From assembly GCA_016193485.1 (NCBI GenBank), contig JACPRZ010000010.1, forward strand, positions 1-64,000: 64,000 nt of DNA, given 5' to 3'. Shown one piece after another: positions 51,177 through 63,761 of this stretch; within the stretch, counting starts at the first letter, position 1, and the number at the start of each line of letters is the position of its first letter. The DNA is from Bacteroidota bacterium. GTDB lineage: Bacteria; Bacteroidota; Bacteroidia; JACPRZ01. Below the pieces are notes generated by a model. That model saw nothing but the letters and a program-made list of their open reading frames with translations, was not told where the DNA came from and did not search any database. A program made the position numbers and the translations under genes.

Positions 51177-52403
51177 ATGTTAATAGAATTCACAGTAGGC
51201 AACTACCTTTCGTTCAAGGAAAAGAAAACTCTAAGTATGGAGGCGACTGCCATTAAAGACAATCCGGGTAATGTGATAGATGCGGGGAAATATAAACTCT
51301 TGCGGAGCGTTGTCTTATATGGAGCTAATTCCAGCGGGAAAAGCAATTTTATTAAAGCGATGAGTAAGATGTGGGGAATGGTAATGTGGTCAGCCAAAGA
51401 AAGTTCAACTTCAGAAATTGATTTAACTCCTTTTTTATTAAGCGCTGAAACAGGGGGGAAACCCTCCTATTTTGAAATAGTGTTTTTAATCGGGGATATT
51501 CGTTACCGCTATGGATTTGAAGCCGATAAAAAGATGATACACTCGGAATGGTTATTTGAAAGTAAAGTCAAAAAGGAAAAGCCCTTATTCCTTCGTGATA
51601 AAAATGTTATTGAAGTAACTGATGATTTCGAAGAAGGCAAAGGCATAGAAGAAAAAACCCGTGATAATGCGTTGTTCCTTTCAGTTGTTGACCAATTTAA
51701 CGGGATTATTTCAAAAAAAATAATGAAATGGCTTAAAAACCAAATTATTTTTTCCGGATTACAACATGAAGAGATGAAAGGATTGACATCAAAATTTTTA
51801 GAAAATAAAGGATTAACTACCCAGATTAAAGATTTTTTAACTCCTTTGAATTTAGGATTTCATGACTTTTCCTTAGTTGAACTTGATGAAAACAAAAATC
51901 GCATAGTAACTTACCATAGCAAATATGATAATAAAGGAAAGGTTATTGGTAAATATGAATTTGATCTCTTGAAGCAGGAATCCTCCGGGACAAATAAGCT
52001 ATATGATATGGCAGGTAGTTTAACTTGTGGCTTAGAATTAGGTACACTTACTGTTATTGACGAATTAGATGCCAAGTTGCACCCCTTGCTGACAATGGCT
52101 ATTGTAAAACTCTTTAATTCTCCTGAACATAATAAGAATAATGGACAATTGGTTTTTGCCACACACGATACCAATCTTTTAACTCACGGTGGCTTCAGGA
52201 GAGACCAGATTTATTTTACTGAAAAAAACCGATTAGAGGCAACCGATATGTATTCATTAGTGGAATATCGTGAACCCGATGGAACCAAAATCCGAAATGA
52301 CCGTTCTTTTGAAAAGGATTATATTGCAGGTAGATATGGCGCTATTCCTTACATTGGCGACTTTTCCAAATTAATCAACGATGGCAAGAGTAGCGAAGAT
52401 TGA
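51177..52403 (+). CDS. AAA-family ATPase, RloA-like defence ATPase
   Basis: The 408-residue ABC/SMC-like ATPase starts MLIEFTVGNYLSFKEKKTLSMEA, the N-terminus usual for AAA_15/AAA_21 proteins. It has Walker A GANSSGKS (residues 49-56), an ABC-signature region about EQESSGTNKLYDMAG-like (LLKQESSGTNKLY), Walker B TLTVIDELDAKLHP and an H-loop FATHDTNLL. The 23-bp overlap with a RloB gene identifies it as the RloA partner. Homologous pairs (AbiLi/AbiLii, RloAB) are linked to abortive infection. The ATPase probably senses infection and holds or releases the nuclease-like partner. AT-rich composition fits transfer. Confidence 0.88.
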   Translation: MLIEFTVGNYLSFKEKKTLSMEATAIKDNPGNVIDAGKYKLLRSVVLYGANSSGKSNFIKAMSKMWGMVMWSAKESSTSEIDLTPFLLSAETGGKPSYFEIVFLIGDIRYRYGFEADKKMIHSEWLFESKVKKEKPLFLRDKNVIEVTDDFEEGKGIEEKTRDNALFLSVVDQFNGIISKKIMKWLKNQIIFSGLQHEEMKGLTSKFLENKGLTTQIKDFLTPLNLGFHDFSLVELDENKNRIVTYHSKYDNKGKVIGKYEFDLLKQESSGTNKLYDMAGSLTCGLELGTLTVIDELDAKLHPLLTMAIVKLFNSPEHNKNNGQLVFATHDTNLLTHGGFRRDQIYFTEKNRLEATDMYSLVEYREPDGTKIRNDRSFEKDYIAGRYGAIPYIGDFSKLINDGKSSED

Positions 52404-53070
52404 CAATGTCTGGAAAAAGCGTTTTGAAAGACAAGAAAAGAAACGCGCTATTGCTATTCGTGATGAACGGGTGTATTTTCTGATTGTTTGTGAAGGAGAG
52501 AAAACGGAACCGAATTATTTTGAAGCACTTAAAAAAGAATTGCCGATTGGAACAGTAGAAATTAAGATTGATGGAACAGGGCGAAATACAATCAGTTTGG
52601 TAGAATATACCATAAAGCAAAAAGATATTGCAAGCAGAAAGTATGACCGTGTTTGGGCTGTATTTGATAAAAATAGTTTTCCTGATAATAATTTTAACAG
52701 CGCTATCATCAAAGCGCGCGATAATAATGTAAATTGTGCCTGGACAAATGAAGCATTTGAACTATGGTTTATACTGCATTTCCAGTATCGCAATACAGGG
52801 ATGAAAAGAAAGGAGTATCAGGATTGTATTGAACAGGAAATACAAAGCAGATCGGGAGATAAAGGATATAAATACAAAAAGAATGACCCGAATACTTATT
52901 CATTGCTGAAAAAATATGGAAATCAAGAGCAGGCAATTAAATGGGCAAAAAAATTACAGCAAAACTTCACTGACGAAAGATATGCTGCTCATAATCCTTG
53001 TACCCGTGTGCATGAGTTAATTGAGGAATTATTTAATCCTAAGGAGATATTAAAAACACTGGAAAGGTAA
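52381..53070 (+). CDS. RloB-family TOPRIM-like protein
   Basis: The 229-residue protein belongs to RloB: FLIVCEGEKTEPNYFEAL (residues 34-50, first acidic TOPRIM-like motif), VWAVFDKNSFPD (92-102) and the block WTNEAFELWFILHF (121-134). RloB proteins are expected to be the nuclease effector of RloAB-type systems. In the second motif many relatives have FDxD; here it reads FDKN, so one presumed metal ligand is Asn. That could lower or alter activity. Translation is coupled to the ATPase gene by a 23-bp overlap. tRNA-Glu follows 166 bp on, a common integration neighbourhood. Confidence 0.88.
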   Translation: MARVAKIDNVWKKRFERQEKKRAIAIRDERVYFLIVCEGEKTEPNYFEALKKELPIGTVEIKIDGTGRNTISLVEYTIKQKDIASRKYDRVWAVFDKNSFPDNNFNSAIIKARDNNVNCAWTNEAFELWFILHFQYRNTGMKRKEYQDCIEQEIQSRSGDKGYKYKKNDPNTYSLLKKYGNQEQAIKWAKKLQQNFTDERYAAHNPCTRVHELIEELFNPKEILKTLER

Positions 53071-53236: not shown

Positions 53237-53310
53237 TTGGCCTGTTCGTCTAGTGGTTAGGACGTATCCCTTTCACGGATAAAACACGGGTTCGACTCCC
53301 GTACGGGCTA
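53237..53310 (+). tRNA. tRNA-Glu (anticodon TTC)
   Basis: The acceptor arms GGCCTGT and ACGGGCT pair with two wobbles. The anticodon stem TATCC/GGATA carries the loop CTTTCAC, giving TTC. The T arm is ACGGG-TTCGACT-CCCGT. Discriminator A, CCA not encoded. A T-run begins four bases later and may stop transcription. Confidence 0.95.
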
Positions 53311-53327
53311 CCGGTTTTTTTCATCCT

Positions 53328-57257: not shown

Positions 57258-58013
57258 ATGATAATGAAAACGATTACAGAAAAATTCTTACATGCATTAA
57301 AAAAACTTATCCTGCTTGACTATGACGGGACGCTTGTCAATTTTTCACCCGTACCTTCTGATGCGAAGCCCTCCAAACGGTTATTGAGTATTTTGAAAAA
57401 ATTAACCGGTGAACCTCAAACAAAAGTGGTAATCATAACCGGCAGAGATTATCAGGACATTGATGCCTTAATCGGTCAGTTACCCATTGATATAATTGCC
57501 GAACATGGAGCAATGGTTAAAGAAAATGGCGGGTGGAAGGAGATGTCCGGATATAATACCCGTTGGAAAAAAGATATTTTCCCGTTGCTGAACGAAGTCA
57601 CCGGAACATATCCCGGTTCATTTATTGAAGAAAAACGTTTCTCTTTGGCATGGCATTACAGAAAAGCGGAAGAAAAACTGGGTTGGGCTTATTCAGAAGC
57701 GATGGTAAGGACACTAAATGATATCACACCCCGATATGGTTTAAGGATAATTACAGGGAATAAAGTGGTTGAAATTATCAGCCGACACATAAATAAAGGA
57801 AAAGCAGTCCGGTATTTCCTTAAACACGGCACCTATGATTTTGTTCTGGCAGCCGGTGATGATACTACGGACGAAGATATGTTTAACGCACTTAGTAAGA
57901 ATAAATATGGTTTTACAATAAAAGTCGGCAATGGGAAAACATCAGCCGGTTATAAACTTGAAACGGTGGACAAGGTATTATCATTGTTGGAAAATTTGTC
58001 AGCAGGGCGATAA
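57258..58013 (+). CDS. otsB: Trehalose-6-phosphate phosphatase
   Basis: OtsB removes the phosphate from trehalose 6-phosphate, the last step of trehalose synthesis. The 251-residue HAD-family enzyme has motif I LLDYDGTLVNF (nucleophile Asp in DYDGT), motif II VVIITGRD, an AEHGAMVKENGGW segment in the cap, SLAWHYRKAE, VVEIISRHINKGKAV (motif III Lys) and motif IV AAGDDTTDEDMF. Starts at 57258 and 57264 are equivalent. It opens the trehalose gene group; the synthase lies downstream of the trehalase gene. An FNR-like box suggests regulation by oxygen or redox. Confidence 0.95.
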   Translation: MIMKTITEKFLHALKKLILLDYDGTLVNFSPVPSDAKPSKRLLSILKKLTGEPQTKVVIITGRDYQDIDALIGQLPIDIIAEHGAMVKENGGWKEMSGYNTRWKKDIFPLLNEVTGTYPGSFIEEKRFSLAWHYRKAEEKLGWAYSEAMVRTLNDITPRYGLRIITGNKVVEIISRHINKGKAVRYFLKHGTYDFVLAAGDDTTDEDMFNALSKNKYGFTIKVGNGKTSAGYKLETVDKVLSLLENLSAGR

Positions 58014-58172: not shown

Positions 58173-59354
58173 ATGATAAATATTAAACCTTATTTGCATT
58201 GCTTGCAGTATATCCGGCACTATTGGGACAAGATTACCTGTTACCGCCCCAAAGACAAACAACTGCATTTCGGGCTTCCCAAAAGATTTGTAGCGCCTAA
58301 CGCCAATATTATTTTTAAAAATGACCAGTTTTACTGGGACACTTATTTTATTATCCTTGGACTGGTAACATCAAAAAGGATTTCGCTTGCAAAAGGAATG
58401 GTTGAGAACTTATGTTATCTTTTCAACCGTTTCGGAATCATTCCCATGAGGAACAGGTACTATAACCTGGGTACATCTCAAATTCCTTTTCTTACTTCGA
58501 TGATAGTTGAAATTTTTAAAGTGGATAATAACCTGCCATGGCTGCAGAAAACATGCAAAGTGGCGGAACTTGAACTGAAAAATTACTGGATGAATAAAAA
58601 TCTTACGGAAAAACATATTGTTTATAAAGGGCTGTCGCGTTATTGCGATCACTACATTACTCATCTTGGCGCTGAACATGAATCGGGGTGGGACATGACA
58701 TCGCGCTTTAATGACCGTTGCCTGGATTACTTGCCGGTTGACCTGAACACATGCTTATATAAATATGAAGCCGATTTATCCCGCCTTTACGCAAAACTAA
58801 AAAAATATAATAAGAGTAATTATTACCGGAAACAGGCGAATAAAAGAAAAAGAAATATCTTATCGCTGATGTGGAATGACAGGAAAAAGTTTTTCTTTGA
58901 TTATGACAAACGGATTAGACAACAAAGTAAGTTTTTATCTGTAGCCGGATTTTATCCCCTTTGGGCTAAACTTGCCACTTTGAAGCAAGCGCACTTAATC
59001 CGGGATGAAATCCTGCCAAAATTTGAATATGATGGCGGTATCGCCAATACGCAATCAAAGGGATTATCCGGTGAAATCAAGCAACACGATTATCCGAATG
59101 GCTGGCCCGGCCAGCAGTGGATTGTGATTAAGGGATTGCTTAATTACGGATTTAAAACAGATGCGGAAAGAATTGCAAAAAAATGGTTAGACATGAACGC
59201 TAAAATATTTTCCAGGACTTTTAAATTATGGGAAAAGTATGATGTGGTCAATTGTGCGACCGGAGTATATAACCCGGACCGCTACGTTACCCAAAGCGGA
59301 TTTGCCTGGACGAATGCTGTTTTTACACGTCTTATTCATGAATTTTCCGAATAA
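58173..59354 (+). CDS. treF: Cytoplasmic trehalase, GH37
   Basis: Trehalase hydrolyses trehalose to two glucose. The 393-residue protein has the (alpha/alpha)6 GH37 signatures: DQFYWDTYFIILGL, ESGWDMTSRF with the catalytic acid Asp174, YDGGIANTQSKGLSGEIKQHDYPNGWPGQQW (QxDxPNGWP) and LWEKYDV with the second catalytic Glu. The usual upstream PGGRF signature is weak (LPKRFVAPN). There is no signal peptide, so it acts in the cytosol like TreF. It is shorter than enteric trehalases. It sits between otsB and otsA, so the cluster holds both synthesis and breakdown. Confidence 0.92.
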   Translation: MINIKPYLHCLQYIRHYWDKITCYRPKDKQLHFGLPKRFVAPNANIIFKNDQFYWDTYFIILGLVTSKRISLAKGMVENLCYLFNRFGIIPMRNRYYNLGTSQIPFLTSMIVEIFKVDNNLPWLQKTCKVAELELKNYWMNKNLTEKHIVYKGLSRYCDHYITHLGAEHESGWDMTSRFNDRCLDYLPVDLNTCLYKYEADLSRLYAKLKKYNKSNYYRKQANKRKRNILSLMWNDRKKFFFDYDKRIRQQSKFLSVAGFYPLWAKLATLKQAHLIRDEILPKFEYDGGIANTQSKGLSGEIKQHDYPNGWPGQQWIVIKGLLNYGFKTDAERIAKKWLDMNAKIFSRTFKLWEKYDVVNCATGVYNPDRYVTQSGFAWTNAVFTRLIHEFSE

Positions 59355-59374: not shown

Positions 59375-61603
59375 ATGCGGTTAAATTTTGCGCTTATCGC
59401 ATCCATTGTTTTTGCAGTAGGACTGGTATCTTTGGCTTTTACGCTCTACCAGATTTCAAATGAAAGAGACAAATTAAACAGCGAACTTGAAAGCAGAACG
59501 GTTCGTATTGCGGAAGAATTCTGCATAAACTATTATTCATATACGCAGGATAGCGCCCGGGAGCAAATACGATATTTTGCCGACAGCATCAGCAATCAAT
59601 ATCAATTATCGGGAATAGCCGTTTATTTCAACCCCGATAGTATTGTAGCCACAAACCCTTCTGTTTTTCCTTACCTGGAAAATTCTCTTGATTATATCGC
59701 GCAATCTATAATTGCCGACACGTCCATTGGAAATATTGTTTCAGTGAGCGGTAAAGAAATATATCAATACATCAAACCGCTAAAACAATTTAACATTCCG
59801 GATCGTGCAATTATCTTTTACTCCGATGCCGGATACATTGACAATATCATCAACGGGATCTGGTTTCGCAACTTCATCCGTTGGTTCGTACAGGCATTAT
59901 TCGTCTCCTTCATTACCGTGCTGATTATTCGATGGGGAATTTTCAGCCCCATCAATAAAATTGTTGGATGGATAAAAGCGGCACGCATAGGAAACGTAGA
60001 AGAATTAAGCAGAAAGCCGCCAGCGAAATTTCTTGCGCCCTTGCATCAGGAGATTGTTCACATCGCCAAAGCCATGTTTGAAGCCAAAGCCATTGCAGAA
60101 GAAGAAGCCCGCTTGCGCTCCAGTGCCGAAGCAATCTGGACACCCGAACGGCTAAAAATAGAAATGGAAAATCTTTTACAGGGCAAAAAAATGATTGTCG
60201 TTTCCAACCGTGAACCCTATATGCACATTCACGATGGCAAAAATATTAAGTGCATTGTTCCTGCAAGCGGAATGATCACTGCAATGGAACCAATCCTGAA
60301 AGCGTGTGGCGGGCTGTGGATTGCATCCGGAACAGGAGACGCAGACAAAGAAACAGTTGGTAAAAATGACAAAGTACAAGTTCCTCCCGATGAGCCGAAA
60401 TATACGTTGAAACGGCTGTGGCTGGCAAAGGAAGAAGAAGACCATTTTTACTATGGCTTTTCAAATGAAGGATTGTGGCCGCTTTGTCATATTGCACACA
60501 CACGCCCCACATTCAGAAAAGAGGACTGGCATTATTACAAAAAAGTAAATGATGACTTTGCAAAAGCAGTTATTGAAGAAACAGCCGATGAAGAACAACC
60601 CTTTATTTTAATTCAGGATTATCATTTTGCCCTGCTGCCTGAACTCATAAAAAAAGAAAAGCCCAATGCAAAAGTCGCCATCTTCTGGCATATCCCCTGG
60701 CCTAATCCCGAATCATTCGGTATTTGTCCCTGGCAAAGAGAAATACTGAAGGGAATGCTTGGGGCGGATTTAATCGGGTTTCACACGCAATATCATTGCA
60801 ACCATTTTCTTGAAACGGTAAATAATGCCCTTGAATCAAGAGTTTCATGGGAGAATTTTTCAGTGAGGATGGAAGGGAGCACAACTTATGTAAAGCCGTT
60901 TCCTATAAGTATTGCATTCACCCTGAAGGATTATGATAATGACAACTTTTCCAAAGTGGACCCGTCACAATTGCTTGGCGAACATGGTATCAGCGCCAGG
61001 TATATGGGGGTGGGCGTGGACAGGATTGATTATACAAAGGGCATCATAGAAAGGTTTCTTGCCGTTGAACGCTTTTTGGAAAAAAATCCTGAATATCAGG
61101 GCGAATTTACTTTCGTGCAAATAGGAGCCCCCAGCCGTACCCTGCTTAAAAGTTACTCGGATATGGTCAGTACAGTTGAGAAAGAAGCCGAGAGAATAAA
61201 CTGGAAGTTCAAAGCAAAAAACCGGAAAGCGATACTGCTGTTAAAACGGCACCACAGCCACGAAGAAATAACTCCATTTTACGCCTCGGCAAATTTCTGC
61301 ATGGTTACATCATTGCACGATGGAATGAATTTAGTGGCAAAAGAATTTTTGGCGGCACGAAATCAAAATGATGGCGTTTTGATCCTCAGCCGTTTTGCCG
61401 GTGCCTCCCGGGAACTTCATGGAGCAATCATCATTAATCCCTATGATATTGAAAAATCAGCAGATGCAATAAAACAAGCATTGGAAATGTCCGCAGAAGA
61501 ACAGGAACAACGCATGAAACAAATGCGGCAGGTGATTGTAAAACACAATATTTATTCATGGGCAGCGGATTTATTAAAAACAATGGCAACCATTCAAAAT
61601 TAA
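59375..61603 (+). CDS. otsA: Membrane-sensor/HAMP-like fusion to trehalose-6-phosphate synthase
   Basis: The C-terminal about 470 residues are a GT20 synthase that joins UDP-glucose (or another NDP-glucose) to glucose 6-phosphate. Visible are MIVVSNREPY, the WHIPWPNPESFG acceptor block, LIGFHTQYHCNHFL, GVGVDRIDYTKGI (donor site) and SLHDGMNLVAKEFLAARN. Unusually, it follows a sensor-like N-terminus: helix 1 (residues 4-24), an extracytoplasmic domain (about 25-165), helix 2 (166-188) and a HAMP-like linker (about 189-250; SPINKIVGWIKAARIG). Ordinary OtsA has about 470 residues and is soluble. The layout suggests synthesis is gated by an extracellular signal such as osmolarity; this is inference. 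Confidence 0.93.
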   Translation: MRLNFALIASIVFAVGLVSLAFTLYQISNERDKLNSELESRTVRIAEEFCINYYSYTQDSAREQIRYFADSISNQYQLSGIAVYFNPDSIVATNPSVFPYLENSLDYIAQSIIADTSIGNIVSVSGKEIYQYIKPLKQFNIPDRAIIFYSDAGYIDNIINGIWFRNFIRWFVQALFVSFITVLIIRWGIFSPINKIVGWIKAARIGNVEELSRKPPAKFLAPLHQEIVHIAKAMFEAKAIAEEEARLRSSAEAIWTPERLKIEMENLLQGKKMIVVSNREPYMHIHDGKNIKCIVPASGMITAMEPILKACGGLWIASGTGDADKETVGKNDKVQVPPDEPKYTLKRLWLAKEEEDHFYYGFSNEGLWPLCHIAHTRPTFRKEDWHYYKKVNDDFAKAVIEETADEEQPFILIQDYHFALLPELIKKEKPNAKVAIFWHIPWPNPESFGICPWQREILKGMLGADLIGFHTQYHCNHFLETVNNALESRVSWENFSVRMEGSTTYVKPFPISIAFTLKDYDNDNFSKVDPSQLLGEHGISARYMGVGVDRIDYTKGIIERFLAVERFLEKNPEYQGEFTFVQIGAPSRTLLKSYSDMVSTVEKEAERINWKFKAKNRKAILLLKRHHSHEEITPFYASANFCMVTSLHDGMNLVAKEFLAARNQNDGVLILSRFAGASRELHGAIIINPYDIEKSADAIKQALEMSAEEQEQRMKQMRQVIVKHNIYSWAADLLKTMATIQN

Positions 61604-61724: not shown

Positions 61725-63005
61725 GTGAGCGCGACTATTATCACAATCTTCATCTTTGGCTATATCGCCATCGCATTTGAACATTACATTAAATTAAACA
61801 AAGCCGCAAGCGCACTACTTACAGGAGTATTATGCTGGACAGTTTACATTATGTCAGGGAGCGAGGTAACCGACATTCATTTCATTTCAGAACAGTTAAT
61901 GGAGCATTTCAGCGGCATTGCCGGCATACTTTTCTTTTTGCTCGGTGCAATGACCATTGTAGAGTTGGTGGACGCACACGATGGTTTTAAAGCAGTAACC
62001 GGTTTAATTAAAACCGATGACAAGAGAAAATTGCTTTGGATTGTAAGTTTTTTCGCTTTTTTTCTATCGGCAGTATTAGACAATCTGACAACAACCATTG
62101 TAATGGTTTCACTTCTCAGGAAATTAATATCTGATAATAAAGAAAGGTTATTTTTTGCAGGAATGATAGTGATTGCAGCCAATGCCGGAGGCGCATGGAG
62201 CCCGATTGGAGATGTTACCACTACAATGTTATGGATTGGCGGGCAAATTACCACAGGAAAAATTATTCCACTGCTTATTCTTCCAAGCATTATTTGTTTA
62301 ATGGTTCCGTTAATTGTAATCTCTTTTGCCGTAAAAGGGAAGACAAATTCACCGGCCGCTGAAATTGAAAAAACGGCAACTAATCCTTTTGAAAGAAATG
62401 TTATTTTTATTACAGGCATTTGTGCGTTAATTTTTGTGCCTGTATTTAAAACCATTACACATCTTCCGCCATTTATGGGTATGCTTTTCGGGCTTAGCAT
62501 ACTTTGGATTGTTGCGGAAATTATTCATATGGGGAAAGAAGAGGAAATCAAATATCCTTTTTCAATAGTAAGAGCGTTGGAAAAAATTGACACTTCATGC
62601 GTTTTGTTTTTCCTGGGAATTTTAATTGCCATTTCAGCGCTGGAATCAACAGGATTGCTCAGGCAACTTGCCTCAACAATGGATGAAAAAATAGAAAATC
62701 AGAATATTATTGTACTGTCCATCGGTTTGCTGTCTGCAATAATTGATAATGTGCCTTTAGTTGCCGCTTCAATGGGAATGTACCCGCTATCCGTTTTTCC
62801 CACGGACCATTATTTTTGGGTATTTATTGCCTATTGCGCGGGAACCGGTGGAAGCATTTTAATTATCGGTTCAGCGGCTGGCGTGGCGGCAATGGGAATG
62901 GAAAAAATCGAGTTCTTCTGGTACATAAAAAAAATCGGATGGCTTGCCCTCTTAGGATACTTTGGCGGTGCATTTTTTTATCTATTTCAAAGCCAACTAT
63001 TCTGA
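61725..63005 (+). CDS. nhaD: Na+/H+ antiporter NhaD
   Basis: NhaD exchanges cytoplasmic Na+ (or Li+) for external protons and is common in salt-adapted bacteria. The 426-residue protein has about 12 membrane helices. Family segments are HFSGIAGILFFLLGAMTIVELVDAHDGF, SFFAFFLSAVLDNLTTTIVMVSLLR (Asp-Asn in a helix), AANAGGAWSPIGDVTTTMLWIGG and LLSAIIDNVPLVAASMGMY. Length is normal. The start codon is GTG at 61725. A response-regulator gene follows after 78 bp. Beside the trehalose genes it completes an osmotic/salt-stress set. Confidence 0.93.
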   Translation: MSATIITIFIFGYIAIAFEHYIKLNKAASALLTGVLCWTVYIMSGSEVTDIHFISEQLMEHFSGIAGILFFLLGAMTIVELVDAHDGFKAVTGLIKTDDKRKLLWIVSFFAFFLSAVLDNLTTTIVMVSLLRKLISDNKERLFFAGMIVIAANAGGAWSPIGDVTTTMLWIGGQITTGKIIPLLILPSIICLMVPLIVISFAVKGKTNSPAAEIEKTATNPFERNVIFITGICALIFVPVFKTITHLPPFMGMLFGLSILWIVAEIIHMGKEEEIKYPFSIVRALEKIDTSCVLFFLGILIAISALESTGLLRQLASTMDEKIENQNIIVLSIGLLSAIIDNVPLVAASMGMYPLSVFPTDHYFWVFIAYCAGTGGSILIIGSAAGVAAMGMEKIEFFWYIKKIGWLALLGYFGGAFFYLFQSQLF

Positions 63006-63019
63006 TTGATTCTTTACCC

Positions 63020-63027
63020 TATTTTTG
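63020..63027 (+). promoter_or_regulatory. Possible internal -7 box before the response regulator
   Basis: TATTTTTG matches TAnnTTTG, 56 bp before the regulator gene, so the two-component genes may also be read without nhaD. Confidence 0.4.
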
Positions 63028-63083
63028 CTGATAAAATCACCATTGAATTACTATCGTACTAAAGCGGCATCATCATTTTCAGA

Positions 63084-63761
63084 ATGAAAATTCTCCTGAT
63101 AGAAGATGAAGTGAAAACCGCACAATCGCTTAAAAATGGTTTGGAAGAAAATCATTTTGAAGTTGACTTGGCTTACGATGGACAAACCGCACTGCAACTT
63201 GCCCTGAAAAATACTTACCAAGTCATAATTTCCGACATAATAATTCCTCACATTAATGGTTTAGAGTTTTGTTCTAAAATCAGGGAAAAAGGAATACAAA
63301 CACCCCTGCTTATGCTCACTGCTCTTGGTACAACAGAAGATAAAGTAACGGGATTTGGTTCAGGTGCTGACGACTATCTTGTTAAACCGTTTGCGTTTGA
63401 GGAATTGATGGCAAGGGTGCGCGCCTTGATGAAACGAAGCACAGGAATTACAAATACGGGTAATTCATTACGATTTGCCGATTTGGAATTAAATCTTGAC
63501 ACAAAAACCGCATTCCGGTCGGGAAAGGAAATAATGCTCACCGCAAGAGAATTTGCCTTGATGGAATATTTTATGAGGAACAAAGGAAAAGTCGTTTCAA
63601 AAACCGATATTGCCGAGAAGGTCTGGGACATTACATTTGACACGGGGACAAATGTTATAGAAGTGTACATAAGTTACCTTAGAAATAAAATCGATAAAAA
63701 TTTTCCCGATAAACTCATCCACACCATTCATGGATTGGGCTATGTCCTAAAGGAAAAATAA
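63084..63761 (+). CDS. OmpR-family response regulator
   Basis: The 225-residue regulator has a receiver domain (about 1-115) with acidic pocket residues in LLIEDE, the phospho-acceptor Asp51 in IISDIIIPHINGLEF, a switch Thr in LTALG and DYLVKPFAFEEL (Lys). A winged-helix DNA-binding domain follows (about 128-222; LTAREFALMEYFMRNKGKVVSK, VIEVYISYLRNKIDKNF, IHTIHGLGYVLKEK). It is of the CusR/PhoP type. It probably binds the ATTTCTAAT direct repeat upstream of nhaD and so controls its own operon. The kinase gene starts at the next base after the stop. Confidence 0.95.
   Translation: MKILLIEDEVKTAQSLKNGLEENHFEVDLAYDGQTALQLALKNTYQVIISDIIIPHINGLEFCSKIREKGIQTPLLMLTALGTTEDKVTGFGSGADDYLVKPFAFEELMARVRALMKRSTGITNTGNSLRFADLELNLDTKTAFRSGKEIMLTAREFALMEYFMRNKGKVVSKTDIAEKVWDITFDTGTNVIEVYISYLRNKIDKNFPDKLIHTIHGLGYVLKEK

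Follow-up and report, generated by a model that had tools for sequence, protein, structure and literature searches.

The outputs of known bacterial receptors that pair a Cache domain with a HAMP domain are chemotaxis proteins, kinases, cyclases, or enzymes of c-di-GMP metabolism. For the glycosyltransferases of family GT20 both the donor and the acceptor are cytoplasmic, and the described trehalose-6-phosphate (T6P) synthases of this family include OtsA (e.g., E. coli, 1UQT/1GZ5, and M. thermoresistibile, 5JIO) and the OtsA-OtsB bifunctional proteins of ~740 aa that are common in the same class as the bacterium considered here. According to a survey of the Cache superfamily, signalling outputs are known for every Cache family bar SMP_2 (Upadhyay et al., 2016, PMC4822843).

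The gene examined here lies in a 64,000-nucleotide stretch of a Bacteroidota contig (JACPRZ010000010.1), referred to below as the window. We consider it somewhat probable that its product is a one-piece transmembrane sensor-effector, in which the half of a histidine kinase that receives and transmits signals is joined to an intact T6P synthase whose output is controlled by a signal. The gene and its predicted parts are as follows, with the basis of each in brackets.

59375..61603, + strand: whole fusion gene, Cache-HAMP-GT20 trehalose-6-phosphate synthase, 742 aa (ORF, Pfam, alignment, AlphaFold2)
59381..59449, + strand: transmembrane (TM) helix 1, residues 3-25 (hydropathy; 73 homologues; model helix 2-56)
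59450..59869, + strand: predicted extracytoplasmic single-Cache domain (PAS-like, WalK type), residues 26-165 (PDB profile, Foldseek, Pfam sCache_3_2)
59870..59944, + strand: TM helix 2, residues 166-190 (hydropathy, 73 homologues, AlphaFold2 model)
59933..60094, + strand: predicted HAMP domain, residues ~187-240, with Pro192 in AS1, Gly206, and Glu226 in AS2 (profiles, kinase alignment, model)
60095..60178, + strand: signalling-helix-like linker, residues 241-268 (conservation across 73 sequences)
60188..61585, + strand: GT20 trehalose-6-phosphate synthase domain, residues 272-737 (Pfam, NCBIfam, PDB, Foldseek)

The 742-residue reading frame is uninterrupted from its ATG at 59375 to its stop at 61603. 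A preliminary description of this DNA had claimed some 270 extra residues ahead of the synthase, and indeed the GT20 match begins at residue 272, leaving ~270 N-terminal residues uncovered by PF00982. It had also placed two membrane helices around ~140 extracytoplasmic residues, with which both hydropathy and homologues agree: the N-terminal part has exactly two strong hydrophobic segments on the Kyte-Doolittle scale (~3-25 and ~166-190), and 73 full-length homologues of 730-780 aa have TM segments at ~3-25 and ~165-190. Because the two segments are similarly placed in 73 homologues from about ten phyla, the layout is not due to chance. Along the protein, TM1 is followed by ~140 extracytoplasmic residues, then by TM2, the HAMP, a linker helix, and GT20, and as GT20 substrates are cytoplasmic, the loop formed by residues 26-165 must lie outside the membrane. 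Sensor module and enzyme domain thus form a single polypeptide, a one-component architecture. Two trivial explanations were rejected: a local oddity or gene-prediction artefact is ruled out by the 73 colinear homologues, and a misread OtsA-OtsB bifunctional protein, which would be of equal length, by the extra part being N-terminal and not a HAD domain, an assessment that included inspection of the class's OtsA-OtsB proteins.

Residues 272-737 are predicted to be a catalytically intact T6P synthase. PF00982 matches with 397 bits (cut-off 32.5) over model positions 2-471 of 473, the nearest proteins in the PDB are T6P synthases, and the C-terminal model aligns with OtsA structures in a GT-B fold (Foldseek E ~1e-35). 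Ten catalytic and glucose-6-phosphate (G6P)-acceptor residues (Arg279, Tyr359, Trp368, Asp415, His439, Arg550, Lys555, Arg588, Asp649, and Glu657) align with those of E. coli OtsA and are kept in 72 or 73 of the 73 homologues; they also agree with the acceptor contacts given for mycobacterial OtsA (PMC6879718). The fusion is the sole GT20 protein of its own genome and of eight of the 11 other genomes checked. In a tree built by a quick method with several long outgroup branches, and for which we rely on the deep split alone, the fusion GT20 domains and a few sensor-less relatives separate from soluble OtsA and from OtsA-OtsB with 98% SH-aLRT.

It is conceivable that the module is sensory and that the product is another phosphorylated glucoside, such as glucosylglycerol-phosphate, instead of T6P, however we judge this to be very unlikely. 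The OtsA equivalog model TIGR02400 aligns in full at 416.6 bits without reaching its cut-off of 564.85, TIGR02398 also aligns to the domain, and the position of E. coli OtsA Gly22 is occupied by Ser in 55 of the 73 homologues, each of which would favor a different product. Against it, TIGR02400 scores higher than TIGR02398 (417 vs. 303 bits), there are conserved equivalents of the Arg, Tyr, Asp, and Arg that bind G6P, and otsB adjoins the fusion in about half of the loci, with a trehalase present at this one.

With the single window protein as query, GT20 was the only domain recovered by Pfam, with no Cache model matched and no HAMP match at E ≤ 1; recognition of the N-terminus requires the profile of 73 homologues. 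The N-terminal profile matches the WalK extracellular domain over residues 32-161 (PDB 5is1, E 4.8e-4), with the WalK entries 5is1, 4ywz, and 7dud together spanning E 4.8e-4 to 5e-3, and WalK likewise provides the best solved Foldseek matches to the N-terminal model (TM-score ~0.71, normalised to the WalK domain). Individual members of the 73 give weak Pfam matches to SMP_2 (30/73), sCache_3_2 (18/73), and dCache_1 (8/73). SMP_2 could be taken as a virulence label, but the Cache survey counts it as a Cache family (PMC4822843), and we regard it as just another weak Cache match. AlphaFold2, supplied with the 73-sequence alignment, modelled the full-length protein with a mean pLDDT of 88 and the N-terminus alone with a pLDDT of 85. 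The N-terminal model comprises a long helix, a helix, two strands, a helix, three strands, the long TM2 helix, a short connector, and a second helix, which as modelled is the element order of a Cache plus HAMP. Between its TM helices it has a long helix at the N-terminal end and a sheet of PAS type, features that, together with matches to solved Caches, define the Cache superfamily. By sequence and predicted fold, residues 32-161 are a WalK-type Cache.

The evidence for HAMP is likewise at the profile level, and consists of homology to accepted HAMP domains and a helix-connector-helix following TM2 (residues 190-249 in the AlphaFold2 model). The N-terminal profile matched chemoreceptor (MCP) and AF1503 HAMP structures at ~167-243 (E 0.0075-0.1), Pfam HAMP (PF00672) was matched by 12 of the 73 members (best 3.7e-5), and alignment of the HAMP part alone to kinases with PF00672 by hhalign gave 96.7% and E 4.3e-10, with the landmarks Pro192, Gly206, and Glu226 lining up with their kinase counterparts. 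The kinship extends to the entire N-terminus: residues 1-267 are colinear, without rearrangement, with four histidine kinases (99.8%, E 2.5e-28, hhalign), and a second kinase set gave 97.7% and E 1.4e-12. The aligned kinases bear Pfam HAMP, HisKA, and HATPase domains, with HAMP at equivalent positions, and in genome samples the N-terminal profile retrieves kinases of ~490-580 aa at 110-124 bits. One genome (G476) encodes both a fusion and a histidine kinase with a matching input module. A Pfam search of the fusion for HisKA or HATPase output found neither, with GT20 alone after the linker. As judged from these alignments, the N-terminus is homologous to the input module of histidine kinases and chemoreceptors (Cache, two TM helices, and HAMP), and the glycosyltransferase occupies the position of the kinase in its relatives. 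The preliminary description had suggested as much, and its proposal of a glycosyltransferase in place of a kinase output is upheld by the kinase-homologous N-terminus, the intact GT20 domain, and the lack of HisKA and HATPase. Its HAMP-like segment is borne out by the 73-homologue profile, the kinase alignment, and AlphaFold2, not by single-sequence Pfam. The domain search that it advised yielded matches to both Cache and HAMP, rather than the blank it had named as counting against the idea, and the structure prediction returned a Cache plus HAMP fold.

The survey across phyla that it had also proposed showed the fusion to be widespread. When the first alignment was used to search 84,980 named species, it matched at least 588 stretches, of which at least 578 encode relatives. 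The best 80 of these come from about ten phyla (Bacteroidota, Acidobacteriota, Elusimicrobiota, Omnitrophota, Nitrospirota, Patescibacteria groups, Methylomirabilota/Rokubacteria, Gemmatimonadota, Edwardsbacteria, and Deltaproteobacteria), and nearly all of them match from residue 1 to 742. One candidate (L007), whose match starts at residue 154, proved to be a HAD-GT20 protein with no sensor and was discarded. A set of 60 genomes, most of them from the same class, contained no further fusion. In samples drawn around named seed genomes, with each sampled genome assigned to the phylum of its seed, the fusion was present in all six phyla, in 1.5% to 29% of genomes: 42 of 145 in Omnitrophota (29%), about 15 of 120 in Elusimicrobiota, about 15 of 149 in Acidobacteriota, eight of 148 in Nitrospirota, eight of 240 in Patescibacteria (3%), and six of 395 in its own phylum (1.5%, window genome included), one of which has two copies. 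That it reaches even the small-genome Patescibacteria is of note.

Within the N-terminus the linker is the most conserved section across the 73 members, at 2.74 bits per column vs. 1.4-2.3 elsewhere, and the Cache columns are the least conserved. The linker family motif is AxEEEARLR..(A)ES.WT.ERLK (residues 237-261 being ARaaAEEEARLR..ES.WT.ERLK), with Trp255 and Leu260 invariant in 73 of 73. An alphaproteobacterial relative of the same GT20 clade, from Aminobacter, has a single TM helix and no sensor and retains the linker WT, and because of this retention we suggest that WT packs on the GT20 domain. Three other members of the fusion clade (L078, L087, and L094) lack the Cache and have kept a TM segment, the HAMP-like region, and the linker; with a TM hairpin or single TM helix placed directly on the HAMP-like region, linker, and GT20, they constitute natural sensor deletions. 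Among divergent fusions of Acidobacteriota no HAMP is detectable by Pfam; one genome of that phylum (G462) has at least two divergent fusions with a degenerate HAMP region (L127 and L132) and holds further N-terminal relatives.

The Cache-less members and the Acidobacteriota fusions without a Pfam-detectable HAMP make anchoring alone a serious rival, in which the N-terminus is a plain anchor or scaffold that holds a dimeric synthase at the inner membrane, e.g., near substrate or partners, and the Cache is a signal-free relic of a kinase ancestor. The Aminobacter relative, anchored by one TM helix and devoid of a HAMP, and the low conservation of the Cache columns point the same way. However, Cache length and the fold-typical residues G80, P135, G144, D151, and W163 are kept in the 73 best homologues from about ten phyla, and a conserved HAMP and linker are unnecessary for a bare anchor. 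We hold anchoring alone to be possible but doubtful. Under the sensor-effector reading that we prefer, a dimeric WalK-type Cache outside the membrane would take the signal, and the external change would shift the packing of TM2 and HAMP. The linker helix might then alter the synthase domain, for instance its dimer geometry or open/closed state, and so change T6P output. The synthase domain would consume cytoplasmic NDP-glucose and glucose-6-phosphate, the neighboring OtsB would convert T6P to trehalose, and the trehalase of this operon could remove trehalose. We infer both dimerisation and the signal-dependent control of synthase activity.

The window gene order is otsB, trehalase, fusion, and nhaD, the neighbors of the fusion being:

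57258..58013, + strand: trehalose-6-phosphate phosphatase OtsB (TIGR00685, 166 bits, cut-off 68; PF02358)
58173..59354, + strand: trehalase (PF01204), ending 20 nt upstream of the fusion gene (Pfam)
61725..63005, + strand: NhaD-type Na+/H+ antiporter, next downstream (NF038006, 171.8 bits, cut-off 80)

Of 81 fusion loci, 42 encode OtsB on the strand of the fusion, mostly no more than ~50 nt away; 27 have TreT, which we identified from its sequence rather than through a family search, 25 have DUF5752, and 17 have the complete OtsB-DUF5752-TreT set. The recurrent fusion-otsB-DUF5752-TreT operon, seen in Acidobacteriota, Omnitrophota, and others (L044, L075, L100, L104, and more), pairs two trehalose routes, T6P synthase and TreT. 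DUF5752 (PF19027) looks like an unstudied trehalose-associated protein, and we found no open-access paper on it. After the fusion, nhaD is followed by an OmpR-type response regulator (61725-63761, + strand), possibly an ion-stress neighborhood. Elsewhere in the window, an AAA ATPase and a RloB-like protein (51177-53070, + strand; PADLOC AbiLi, 303 bits, and AbiLii, 98 bits) are likely an AbiL anti-phage pair, and lie just upstream of a tRNA-Glu (53239-53312).

Ion transporters adjoin the fusion at some other loci, as nhaD does here, by raw observation an apparent enrichment. They may point to ionic or osmotic stress, and osmolarity as the cue is our guess. The transporters could also be read in the reverse direction, with GT20 sensing a sugar phosphate and the Cache-HAMP half relaying that information to the outside or to a partner, be it a kinase or a transporter, in keeping with plants and fungi, where trehalose-6-phosphate and GT20 proteins are metabolic signals. 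We find this barely plausible, given that the catalytic residues are fully conserved and that a genome with the fusion usually has no second GT20 protein, the fusion gene lying beside otsB in an enzyme-like setting; moreover, we know of no precedent for an outward-signalling Cache-HAMP.

Related GT20 genes are labelled simply "trehalose-6-phosphate synthase" in public records, and for this reason the membrane half is easily overlooked. We found no description of a HAMP- or Cache-bearing trehalose synthase in the open-access literature, the scope of our search, which left subscription papers outside. Whether these proteins are widespread, apparently undescribed receptors in which a Cache-HAMP module directly and allosterically controls an osmoprotectant-making enzyme, bypassing kinase, second messenger, and transcription, is to our minds evenly balanced. 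If they are, bacteria would couple an external cue to compatible-solute synthesis directly, without a kinase or gene-regulation step, and the enzyme output would offer an easy assay for how HAMP domains drive diverse outputs.

The individual parts are each known from described systems. With OtsA the fusion shares the GT-B fold, the donor, acceptor, and catalytic residues, and the otsB neighbor, and differs in its 270-residue membrane sensor N-terminus, its separate GT20 clade, and an NCBIfam OtsA score below cut-off. OtsA-OtsB proteins, similar in length and likewise equipped with a GT20 domain, carry a phosphatase at the C-terminus where the fusion has an additional sensor at the N-terminus. 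With WalK/YycG-type kinases that have an extracytoplasmic Cache and HAMP, the fusion shares the order and spacing of TM1-Cache-TM2-HAMP and is homologous by profile and fold, but it is without HisKA or HATPase and its output is a biosynthetic glycosyltransferase. Like the Cache signal transducers of Upadhyay et al. (2016), it has an extracellular, TM-anchored Cache; a glycosyltransferase is not named as a Cache output in the sections of that survey cited here (PMC4822843), and the fusion carries one. Their union, a Cache-HAMP receptor half joined to a biosynthetic glycosyltransferase, is apparently undescribed in the open-access literature, and places the same input module on a metabolic enzyme that is kept across about ten phyla and is often the only T6P synthase of the cell.
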